A stretch of 64,000 nt of DNA from Phormidium sp. OSCR. Its GTDB lineage: Bacteria; Cyanobacteriota; Cyanobacteriia; Cyanobacteriales; Geitlerinemataceae. The position numbers and the translations under genes were made by a program. This document shows, in pieces, positions 2,791 to 28,983 of the stretch. The stretch is taken from positions 1 through 64,000 of the forward strand of contig LJZT01000010.1 in NCBI GenBank assembly GCA_001314905.1. The letters are read 5' to 3'. The notes under the pieces are model-generated. The model was given only the letters and a program-made list of their open reading frames with translations. It made no database searches and was not told the origin of the DNA. How positions within the stretch are numbered: position 1 is the first letter of the stretch; every line of letters starts with the position of its first letter.

Positions 2791-3016
2791 GTCAACAAAT
2801 CCTCACTTTTTCAAAATATCTTGATCGTCTTTACCCTAAAAGAGCCAAACGCCCCTGGCAACCAATTCGCCATCAAGTCTCAGAGTAGATTCAAGCCAAA
2901 ACGTCCCAACCCAACCAACATTTTTGGGGCAAAGTTCACCACTGTAATACAATGAAAAACTGGCTACACAAATAGCCTGTCGTGCGTTACATCGCTCCTC
3001 AAAGGTTTTACCCCCT

Positions 3017-5122
3017 ATGACCGCATCCACCCATATCCTTATGTGTCCGCCTCATCACTACGATGTGGACTACGTGATCAACCCCTGGATGGAAGGAAAC
3101 ATCCATCGCTCATCGCGCGATCGCGCCGAACGCCAATGGGAAGGACTCCATAAAATCCTCAAAGACCATGCCATCGTTGACCTCATCGAACCCCAAAAAG
3201 GCGTTCCCGACATGGTCTTCACCGCCAACGCCGGCCTCGTCCTCGGCGATAACGTCGTCTTGAGTCGCTTCTACCACCCCGAACGCCAGGGAGAAGAACC
3301 CCACTTCAAACAATGGTTTAAAGACAACGGCTTCACCGTCTACGAACTCCCCAAAGACCTCCCCTTTGAAGGGGCCGGCGACGCACTCCTCGATCGCGAA
3401 GGCCGGTGGCTGTGGGCCGGATACGGATTTCGCTCCGAACTCGACTCCCACCCCTACCTCGCCAAATGGCTCGACATCGAAGTCATCTCCCTGCAACTCG
3501 TCGATAGTCGCTTCTACCACCTCGACACCTGCTTCTGTCCCTTAACCAACGGCTATCTCCTCTACTATCCCCCCGCCTTCGACTTCTACTCCAACCGCCT
3601 GATTGAAATGCGGGTTCCCCCGGAAAAACGCATTATTGTCAACGATGACGATGCCGGGAACTTTGCCTGTAACGCCGTCAACGTCGGCGATGTGGTGGTC
3701 ATGAACCAAGTCAGCGACAGTCTCAGCAGCCGACTGAGTGAGGTGGGTTTCACGGTCATCCAAACTCCCCTGAGCGAATTTCTCAAAGCCGGTGGGGCCG
3801 CCAAATGCCTCACCCTGCGCACCACGGAACCGGTGATGCCCAACGTTCACGCCGTTGATTCCGTTGTTTCGACAACCATTACCCTAGAAGGCCATCTCCT
3901 CGATGCCGGAATTATCAACCGGGCCTTAGATCTCGTCGTCGAAGGGGGGGGAAGTTTCCAAGTCCGCAACTTCAACCTCGGCGAACAGCGTCAAAGCACC
4001 TCAACCGCTGACGTTCACATTTCCGCCCCCTCCAACGACGTGATGGAGGAAATTCTGGCCCAATTGATCGAGTTGGGGGCCGTGTCTCTGCCCGAAGATC
4101 AGGCCGATGCCGATCTCGCAGCCGTCGAAAAAGCCGGTGTTGCCCCCGATGACTTCTATGTCACCACCATTTATCCCACCGAAATTCGCGTCAAGGGTGA
4201 GTGGATTCGCGTCGGGAAGCAACGGATGGATGGGGCCATCGCCGTGAAAGAGACTCCTGAAGGGATTGTGGCTGAATGTAAAATCCTACGAGATTTAGAA
4301 ACTCACGAGAAAGTCGTGGTGGGAGTTTCGGGCATTCGCACCGTGCGTAAACCGGAATCTCGCGAAAAACGCGGTAGTCAAGAGTTTGGCTTTATGTCCG
4401 CTGGTGTCTCGAGTGAACGGCGGGTGGAACTGGTGGTTGAACAGGTGGCCTGGGAACTGCGACGGATTCGCGATCGCGGCGGCAAAGTCCTCATCACCGC
4501 TGGCCCCGTGGTGATTCACACCGGCGGGGGAGAACATCTCGCTTGGCTCATTCGTGAAGGCTATGTGCAAGGATTGCTCGGAGGGAATGCGATCGCCGTC
4601 CATGATATGGAACAATCCTGTCTGGGTACTTCCCTCGGGGTGGACATGAAACGAGGAATCGCCGTTCGCGGCGGCCATCGCCATCACCTCAATGTCATCA
4701 ACACCATCCGTCGTCATGGCAGCATCGCTAACGCTGTCGAGGCTGGCGTGGTCGATCATGGGGTGATGTATGAATGTGTGAAACACAATGTCCCCTTCGT
4801 TTTGGCCGGTTCCATCCGCGATGATGGCCCCCTTCCTGACACGGAAATGGATCTAGTTCGCGCTCAAGAACGTTATGCTGACTTGGTTCGGGGTGCTGAC
4901 ATGATTCTGATGCTCTCGACGATGTTGCACTCCATTGGCGTGGGGAACATGACCCCCTCCGGCGTGAAGATGGTTTGTGTGGATATCAACCCGGCGGTGG
5001 TGACTAAACTCAGCGATCGCGGTTCCGTCGAATCCACAGGCGTGGTGACGGATGTGGGCCTATTCTTGAGTCTGTTAGTCAAGCAATTGGCCCAATTGAC
5101 GAGTCCTCTGGTTAACGCCTAA
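3017..5122 (+). CDS. argZ: Arginine dihydrolase AgrE/ArgZ (with C-terminal ornithine cyclodeaminase-like region)
   Basis: Cyanobacterial enzyme that converts arginine to ornithine, CO2 and two ammonia in one step. In AgrE of Anabaena a C-terminal region carries ornithine on to proline. At 701 residues it matches the full-length family. The N-terminal guanidine-modifying domain retains the residues known to matter in Synechocystis ArgZ at the same numbers: Asn22, Asn71, Glu118, His168 and the nucleophile Cys264. The region after about residue 290 contains a glycine-rich nucleotide-binding segment ([13 protein letters not shown]). The gene is monocistronic and overlaps the convergent bioD by 4 bp at its stop. 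It probably serves nitrogen remobilisation, including cyanophycin-derived arginine. Confidence 0.93.
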
Positions 5123-26943: not shown

Positions 26944-27180
26944 CTAACTCTCAACGTTGATCAAAGATTCTCCCATGTCGAGTCCAGTATGATTCGATTG
27001 AAAGCGCCGACGACCACTGCCACGATGAGGTTGGACTTCATCTTTTTGTTCAGTTTGAGCTGACAGAAAACCGCGATAGGCGACAGAATCAAACTCAGTA
27101 GATTTCGAGGACTGGCTGAAGTTGGCGAAGGAAGACCCTAAGCCCAAAAGTAAAGCGGACAGAACCAAAGAACTACGCAT
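26944..27180 (-). CDS. patX: PatX-like precursor of an RGSGR peptide (HetR inhibitor)
   Basis: 78-residue protein with a signal peptide (residues 1-20, hydrophobic core LVLSALLLGLG) and the pentapeptide RGSGR at 53-57, preceded by His (HRGSGR) and followed by Arg-Arg. PatX proteins, known across filamentous cyanobacteria, have this layout. Their processed peptide binds HetR and blocks its DNA binding, patterning heterocysts in species that make them. The RGSGR codons are at 27010-27024. The tail after the motif (residues 59-78) is longer than in PatS. It is 57 bp downstream of a flavoprotein gene. HetR itself is not in the window. Call based on size, signal peptide and motif. Confidence 0.85.
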   Translation of the reverse strand: MRSSLVLSALLLGLGSSFANFSQSSKSTEFDSVAYRGFLSAQTEQKDEVQPHRGSGRRRFQSNHTGLDMGESLINVES

Positions 27181-27237
27181 AATCGGAAGAAGCTGTTTCA
27201 GGTACTTAGTTCCTGTTACAGATTTCCGATGGGGCGA

Positions 27238-28983
27238 TCAGGAGGAAATTCCTTCAAGTCGTAACCATTGTCCTGAGGGGTTGAAATATCCCCAGCCTGA
27301 AAGCTGATGATGATTGGGGTAGCTTTGTAACTGTCGCTCAACGGTCGGATGTAAGGTCACCAGTTTCCAGGTGCGATCGCCGATCTGAATTTGATAGTCT
27401 TGATCTCCGAGTCGCTCAACTCGCCCGGATATCGTCTGGGCTTGGGGATCTCGCCGCATCACAGCCGGCCCGGCGGGATGATACCCTGTGGCGGGATAGT
27501 CCTGTGGCTGATTGAGATAATAGCGTTGCCAATGTCGCCAATCGGGGTCATCGAGAAGGGAGTCAAACAGGGGAATGACCGCAGCGGGGGCCTGTTGATC
27601 GCTCAGTAAGGCCTCTTGCAGCAGACGCACGGGTAACTCTCGCGGTTGACAGCGATGCTGGATACAGAGGGCGGCTGCGAGTCCGGCGGCTTGTCCGATA
27701 TTCATCACCAGGGGCTGCAAGCGAGTACAGCCATTGGCAATGTGGGAGACGGAGATGTTTTTCTCACAGGCCAAGAAGCCATCTATCTCTACCGGAATCA
27801 GGCAGCGGTAGGGAAGGGAAAAGGGGGTTCCGGTCCAGCGCCCTCCCCAGTGTAAGGATTTGGATTGAACCTGAAAGGGCCAATCAGGATAATGATGGTC
27901 GTTGGCATAATTGCCGATGGCGATCGCCTCAACTCCCTGTTCTCCGATGGGTAAAGGGGCGACTTGTCCCCCCAACTGGGGCAAAATATCTTGTTCACAG
28001 ACCGTTGTCAGTCCCAGCAAGCGGCGACTTTCCCGGAAATAGGGATGAAGGGCTAACCCCGAGGCAGCCTGGGGAAATAGCCCTTCAGCGAAGCCATAGC
28101 GTCGCCCCAGTCGCCGTTGTAGGAAACGGGCAAAGCTCTGAGTTCGCCATTGGGCCTCTTGTAAACAGTCGCGCCGGGTTTGGGGGGATTCAATCAGCCG
28201 TTGCAGATTCACGCCATAGTCGTTGCCCTTGTGGGGCCAGTTGAGCATGAGGCGATGGCCCGGCAGGCGGCCATAGTTGAGGAAGCGTTCTAAGCCATGG
28301 TTCTCCCAAGCCCCGAGAAAGTCTGAGGCTGAATCCCCTGGAGGGGCGGCAATTTCTGGGGCCACGGCTCCCTCGCCATAGTCCTGCAATACTCCCACCC
28401 AGGTCAGGGCCTGGACGGGATAGCGGGCTGTATTGGGGTTGGGGCCGTCTGGGGCGCTGGGTTCGTTGAACTGCGATCGCCAGTCCCAACCCCAGCGATG
28501 GGGAATCTCGGCTAAGGCCAACAGGTCCCCGAGTTCTGTACCATCGAGGATGATCTCGGCACTGACGTCACAGTGGTCAAAGGCGACGGCCCGGACGCGA
28601 TTGTTCTCGACGGTGACTCCTTGGGGCGTTTGTCCACAAATCCAATGCAGGTTGGGCAAGGCGTTAACCCAATCCTGGAAAATTTGCGCGCCAATGGCTG
28701 GGTTAAAGGTAAAGAAACTCACCCAGCCCCAATCGAGGCCACCGGGTTGACGGCGTTGCAGTTCTCGCAAAAATTGCCCCCAGAGTCCCGTTTGCCACGC
28801 TAACAGTTCGTTGCCATCGGGGGCGCTGACGCCGGCAGCGGTGAGCATTCCTCCCAGCCAGGGAAATTCACTGATGAGGAGGGTGTTGACCCCCTGTCGC
28901 GCAGCTTGGATGGCGGCGGCGGTTCCCCCGGTTCCCCCTCCCACAACTAAGACATCTACGGTATGGCGATCGCGTGGGGGCAT
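27238..28983 (-). CDS. FAD-dependent oxidoreductase (FAD_oxidored family)
   Basis: 581-residue flavoprotein with the N-terminal VDVLVVGGGTGGTAAAIQAA dinucleotide motif, an E-F-P-W-L-GG-ML segment typical of the FAD_oxidored family, and a C-terminal IGQAAGLAAALC helix that closes over FAD. Relatives are annotated vaguely (xanthan lyase-related or succinate dehydrogenase-like) and the substrate is unknown. The start MPPRDRH lies just after a heptamer repeat array. Confidence 0.85.
   Translation of the reverse strand: MPPRDRHTVDVLVVGGGTGGTAAAIQAARQGVNTLLISEFPWLGGMLTAAGVSAPDGNELLAWQTGLWGQFLRELQRRQPGGLDWGWVSFFTFNPAIGAQIFQDWVNALPNLHWICGQTPQGVTVENNRVRAVAFDHCDVSAEIILDGTELGDLLALAEIPHRWGWDWRSQFNEPSAPDGPNPNTARYPVQALTWVGVLQDYGEGAVAPEIAAPPGDSASDFLGAWENHGLERFLNYGRLPGHRLMLNWPHKGNDYGVNLQRLIESPQTRRDCLQEAQWRTQSFARFLQRRLGRRYGFAEGLFPQAASGLALHPYFRESRRLLGLTTVCEQDILPQLGGQVAPLPIGEQGVEAIAIGNYANDHHYPDWPFQVQSKSLHWGGRWTGTPFSLPYRCLIPVEIDGFLACEKNISVSHIANGCTRLQPLVMNIGQAAGLAAALCIQHRCQPRELPVRLLQEALLSDQQAPAAVIPLFDSLLDDPDWRHWQRYYLNQPQDYPATGYHPAGPAVMRRDPQAQTISGRVERLGDQDYQIQIGDRTWKLVTLHPTVERQLQSYPNHHQLSGWGYFNPSGQWLRLEGISS

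Follow-up and report, generated by a model that had tools for sequence, protein, structure and literature searches.

A short open reading frame in the genome of Phormidium sp. OSCR raises the question of whether a filamentous cyanobacterium of this kind encodes a PatX-type peptide precursor and, if so, what the released peptide would act on. The frame lies in the first 64,000 nucleotides of contig LJZT01000010.1 (assembly GCA_001314905.1); this whole stretch of DNA was analyzed and is referred to as the window. An initial reading of the letters alone (the original prediction) had proposed a 78-residue PatX-like protein with a signal peptide and the exact RGSGR pentapeptide, and had linked the genome to HetR-based regulation.

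Identification of the patX gene

The 78-residue frame with the exact RGSGR was found at 26944-27180, on the minus strand, which the original prediction did not state; the plus strand of the same segment contains stops in frame 1. The ATG is at 27180 and the stop codon ends at 26944, giving a product of 78 residues, MRSSLVLSALLLGLGSSFANFSQSSKSTEFDSVAYRGFLSAQTEQKDEVQPHRGSGRRRFQSNHTGLDMGESLINVES. By sequence inspection, the N-terminus is signal-peptide-like, as proposed, with uncharged hydrophobic residues at positions 5-15 and a possible S-x-A (SFA) cleavage site at 17-19. HRGSGR occupies residues 52-57 and is followed by RR, so that the 21 residues said to lie C-terminal to the pentapeptide, with Arg-Arg after the motif, are borne out in the translation. 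The gene and its parts are as follows.

26944..27180, minus strand: patX, copy of the tail type, with 78 codons and a stop; supported by translation, NF047413, six congener orthologues and dN/dS
27124..27180, minus strand: predicted signal peptide, residues 1-19, MRSSLVLSALLLGLGSSFA; basic residue, 11-residue hydrophobic stretch, S-F-A at -3/-1
27010..27027, minus strand: HRGSGR, putative mature hexapeptide, residues 52-57; invariant in the genus, centre of the conserved block
26947..27009, minus strand: C-terminal tail of 21 residues, RRFQSNHTGLDMGESLINVES; from translation

The NCBIfam equivalog model NF047413, "heterocyst-inhibiting protein PatX", matched the window protein with 36.4 bits (cut-off 30), supporting the PatX-like identity, while a Pfam search with the 78-residue protein returned no domain match. 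The gene had been thought easily missed by annotation; small as it is, it is less hidden than suggested, since a curated model for this family now exists.

Other sources of the pentapeptide were considered. PatS resembles the window protein in having RGSGR as its active core but has only 13-17 residues and lacks a signal sequence; this identity was rejected for a 78-residue product with a signal-like N-terminus and 21 residues past the motif. HetN also contains RGSGR, within a ketoacyl-reductase-like enzyme; this identity was rejected because the window protein has 78 residues and no Pfam domain (no short-chain reductase fold). Among 255 ATG-started frames of 30-130 residues in the window, RG[ST]GR occurs in one, patX. 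Chance was estimated from 150 trials of first-order Markov sequence with the window composition (the same dinucleotide make-up), in which 0.15 small frames bearing RG[ST]GR are expected per 64 kb. The motif alone is therefore weak evidence; motif and signal-like N-terminus together arose in none of the 150 trials. This random expectation speaks for a chance frame that happens to hold RGSGR, against which stand the curated family match, purifying selection, and the kept gene order and promoter elements described below. We regard a chance origin as vanishingly improbable and rejected it on conservation and the NF047413 match.

Conservation and gene order

Sister-species conservation, proposed as a check on the gene, was found throughout the genus: all six other sampled genomes carry the protein, with identities of 94%, 86% and about 59-60% (four genomes). 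Named carriers in the genus are Phormidium willei BDU 130791, Phormidium sp. SL48-SHIP and Geitlerinema sp. P-1104; further out, Geitlerinema sp. BBD 1991-9 and Baaleninema simplex PCC 7105 carry it, and the window-type protein is kept in most of the family. With dN/dS of 0.03-0.37 in every within-genus pair (omega < 0.4 throughout), the gene is, as judged from these substitution ratios, under purifying selection in the genus. The block LSAQTEQKDEVxPHRGSGRRRF is nearly invariant across the seven genomes of the genus, and HRGSGR itself is invariant. The stretch that separates the signal from this block varies, and so does the tail apart from its initial RR and a GE(S) motif, which are common to the family.

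The immediate neighbours of patX are the following.

27238..28983, minus strand: FAD-dependent oxidoreductase gene, directly upstream of patX; PF12831, 326 bits
24746..26794, minus strand: EF-G-like GTPase gene, lying downstream and not counted as belonging to the patX system; Pfam EFG domains

Among the stretches examined, the EF-G-like gene adjoins patX only within the genus. A homologue of the FAD gene is located directly upstream of patX in seven families (f1, f2, f9, f11, f14, f20 and f33), and FAD gene and patX are followed by hetR within about 1.5 kb in most examined stretches of f2, f9, f11, f14 and f20. Exceptions to a close hetR are genus g57 of f2 and family f33, which we infer to be Nostocaceae-like and where hetR is about 12 kb away. 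In the window genus, hetR is elsewhere: in this genome it lies on a separate contig, and of these two genes only the FAD gene still adjoins patX. Since this neighbour is common to hetR-linked patX loci, the window copy can be assigned as the syntenic counterpart of the hetR-linked patX. We know of no functional link between the PF12831 oxidoreductase and patX. Gene order, as compared across genomes, is the strongest single argument that the gene is the ancestral patX rather than a look-alike. Between them, its conservation, the shared gene order and the NF047413 match leave no doubt that the window frame is a bona fide patX.

Promoter element and inverted repeat

PatX is said to have been defined by Elhai and Khudyakov in 2018, with a DIF1 motif close upstream as the criterion. 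Two upstream features were located in the window.

27238..27243, minus strand: TCCTGA at -63, a DIF1-like promoter element that includes the TGA with which the upstream gene ends
27182..27230, minus strand: inverted repeat, a dyad or hairpin located after the DIF1-like element and before the ATG; RNA fold z = -3.2

TCCTGA is one base off the DIF1 sequence TCCGGA and is the commonest variant in tail-type patX genes (16/28). Of 46 non-redundant patX upstreams, 40 had a DIF1-like TCCNGA or near variant at -70 to -54, compared to 2.5% of shuffles. In many families the inverted repeat takes the form TCCGTATCAG-N(about 10)-CTGATACGGA; the form seen in the window genus is CTGTAACAGG-N(about 9)-CCTGAAACAG. 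RNAalifold, applied to 15 upstreams aligned with MAFFT, recovered the hairpin's inner 4 pairs only, as the arms are not aligned by structure. In an arm-swapping permutation used instead, cognate arms matched better than swapped ones across the 46 non-redundant upstreams (6.5 versus 5.1; permutation p = 5e-5, with relatedness among upstreams not fully corrected); the arms co-vary between families. One reading of the dyad is a DNA operator over the -10 region, since the predicted transcription start falls inside the dyad; the other is a hairpin that keeps patX silent when transcripts started at the FAD gene read through.

HetR, its peptide contacts and nifH

Searching the genome for hetR, as had been suggested, returned one copy on contig C89 (PF18460, HetR_C, 139 bits; 303-residue protein), and the proposed link to HetR-based regulation gains support from its presence. 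The HetR of the organism aligns gap-free over 299 residues with the solved HetR of PDB 3qod, and R223, E253, E254, D256, D270 and D278 are identical in the two; these residues either touch PatS6 or are required for it to act (PMC4649674). In the PatS6 structure, E254 and D256 grip the free N-terminus and the C-terminal carboxylate is close to R223 (PMC4649674). With both PatS6 termini engaged by HetR in this way, a precursor with a 21-residue tail would be predicted to stay inactive until the motif has been cut free at each end.

A nifH gene (G000:C50:7757-8572) scored 451 bits, over the TIGR01287 cut-off, and the organism is therefore probably able to fix nitrogen. It probably does so without heterocysts, which are not known in its relatives.

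A second patX copy

A second patX was identified on contig C15: MSIYKTLLLSSLLLMGFAVNVQAARVSSDSNYDTLSQVFSTDSSNADTVPHRGSGR, in which HRGSGR is the exact C-terminus. It matches NF047413 with 45.3 bits, shows about 90% identity to its counterpart in each of the six congeners and has the canonical DIF1 sequence TCCGGA at -63. Exactly two NF047413 matches are present in this genome, and likewise in all congeners. A third HRGSGR reading, on contig C103, is antisense to a larger gene and has no signal-like N-terminus. Across families, patX genes fall into two types, a division that is rough: the tail type, usually with 13-30 residues after RGSGR and often hetR-linked, and a type that ends at RGSGR or within a few residues of it. 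Most genomes of f1, f2, f9 and f20 have two or three copies, and f33 has one per genome.

The presence of two copies allows that the second, with its C-terminal HRGSGR and TCCGGA, performs the HetR work and that the window copy is a decaying or subfunctionalized paralogue. The window copy is indeed faster-evolving, with congener identities of 59-94% versus about 90% for the second copy. RGGGR is found in the orthologues of sister genus g5, which indicates that a window-type copy can lose the exact motif, and also in tail-type copies of g57; in genome G023 the hetR-linked copy reads RGTSR and another copy keeps RGSGR. Against decay in the window genus, HRGSGRRRF with the preceding block is (nearly) invariant in all seven genomes, and no pair reaches an omega of 0.4. 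We consider such a paralogue unlikely.

The tail-type copies with altered motifs are found at L020, L023 and L024 (g5), at L100 and L104 (g57), and at L133 near 3000 (RGTSR, G023). Their drift to RGGGR or RGTSR beside a copy that keeps RGSGR possibly reflects relaxed or altered paralogue function.

A proposed peptide signal and its target

The gene, its motif, conservation, family membership and gene order, the intact HetR contacts and the second copy were obtained directly. Together with what is known of Nostoc, they lead us to favour, as the probable explanation, a bona fide patX whose exported product is cut to HRGSGR and which, as one of two precursors, brakes a HetR-controlled programme other than heterocyst formation. 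In Nostoc, PatX requires Sec export and is cleaved by PatP, and the resulting HRGTGR, which binds HetR at 88 nM, stops HetR from binding DNA (PMC12756182). By analogy, the window PatX would be exported through its short signal peptide, and periplasmic peptidases, probably including a PatP-type enzyme as in Nostoc, would cut before His52 and after Arg57 to free HRGSGR; the 21-residue tail must come off in this scheme to give a free peptide C-terminus. The hexapeptide would enter neighbouring or the same cells and dock on the HetR hood domain, in its lateral cleft, so releasing HetR from DNA. HetR inhibition by this PatX is likewise extrapolated from Nostoc. Exported, processed and bound in this manner, HRGSGR would act as a diffusible brake with two sources: the window copy, which occupies the ancestral FAD-patX locus, and the second copy, which would need one cut.

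The association between patX and hetR was assessed in a census of 243 genomes of the order using a PatX profile built in this analysis. Profile matches were obtained in 94 of 138 hetR-positive and 7 of 105 hetR-negative genomes, five of the latter seven being weak (Fisher p = 3e-24, relatedness not corrected). NF047413 exceeded its cut-off in 88 of the 243 genomes and had no match in 14 control genomes. Neither the HetR profile nor the full-length protein had a match in Baaleninema simplex PCC 7105 (G008) or in G021, genomes that are 97-99% complete. Both have intact patX genes with HRGSGR (L017 and L037 in G008, L111 in G021). Because B. simplex keeps both patX copies without a detectable hetR, patX may have a role without HetR.

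The function of HetR and PatX in filamentous cyanobacteria without heterocysts has been described as a mystery (PMC11298460), and a real PatX whose peptide acts mainly on a non-HetR target in such lineages has to be weighed. In Leptolyngbya BL0902, deletions indicated that transcriptional effects of PatX are largely HetR-independent, and PatX was not seen opposing HetR; in those gene groups on which patX and hetR had opposite effects, the double mutant was like the patX and not the hetR mutant (PMC11298460). G008 and G021, with intact motifs and no HetR match, point the same way, although these draft assemblies could have lost hetR. The strong patX-hetR co-occurrence, the physical linkage of the two genes in several families and the intact peptide-binding residues of the organism's own HetR all argue against a different main target, which we judge improbable. 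HetR remains the favoured target of the peptide.

Relation to known systems and multi-unit precursors

The window gene belongs to an already described kind of small gene, patX. It shares with PatX of Nostoc/Anabaena PCC 7120 and with NF047413 a short protein, an export signal (predicted here) and RG(S/T)GR near the C-terminus, and with the former also a DIF1-type promoter position, an upstream FAD gene (in Nostocaceae-like f33) and the presence of hetR. It differs from PatX of PCC 7120 in having RGSGR instead of RGTGR, a 21-residue tail and TCCTGA instead of TCCGGA, in being one of two patX genes and in residing in a host without heterocysts, judging by relatives. The patX-hetR pair of Leptolyngbya BL0902 is comparable in its non-heterocystous filamentous host and in having patX beside a HetR system, but there patX is immediately upstream of hetR, whereas the hetR accompanying the window gene is on another contig. 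The second patX copy resembles PatS in ending exactly in RGSGR.

Less expected features are the two precursors, the patX promoter dyad, patX without detectable hetR in two genomes, precursors with three to four units and the loss of the exact motif from one copy (RGGGR or RGTSR) beside another that keeps RGSGR. For the first, we put forward tentatively, and with more doubt than assent, that two PatX precursors serve a single HetR in non-heterocystous filaments, the two inputs setting hexapeptide dose and timing. The PatX with a C-terminal motif would need a single N-terminal cut and be driven by a canonical DIF1 promoter; the copy at the FAD-patX(-hetR) locus would need tail removal and have a variant promoter with a covarying dyad; some lineages would instead multiply units inside one precursor. 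With two conserved patX of different architecture and one hetR in the genus, and nifH in this genome, single and double deletions could separate the roles of the precursors. The patX genes in genomes with no detectable hetR bear on whether PatX depends on HetR in every case, and the multi-unit precursors of family f32 on whether peptide dose matters.

Five genomes of f32 have long PatX precursors of about 150-225 residues, located as follows.

L144, ~3900-4600: long PatX precursor
L145, ~3900-4300: long PatX precursor
L146, ~2800-3370: long PatX precursor
L101 and L157: long PatX precursors

The four f32 precursors that were read contain three to four tandem RGSGR units (NPDDDDSRGSGRF or ESDKKESRGSGRF repeats). 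With one signal peptide and one DIF1-like promoter, these multi-unit precursors resemble multi-copy peptide hormone precursors.
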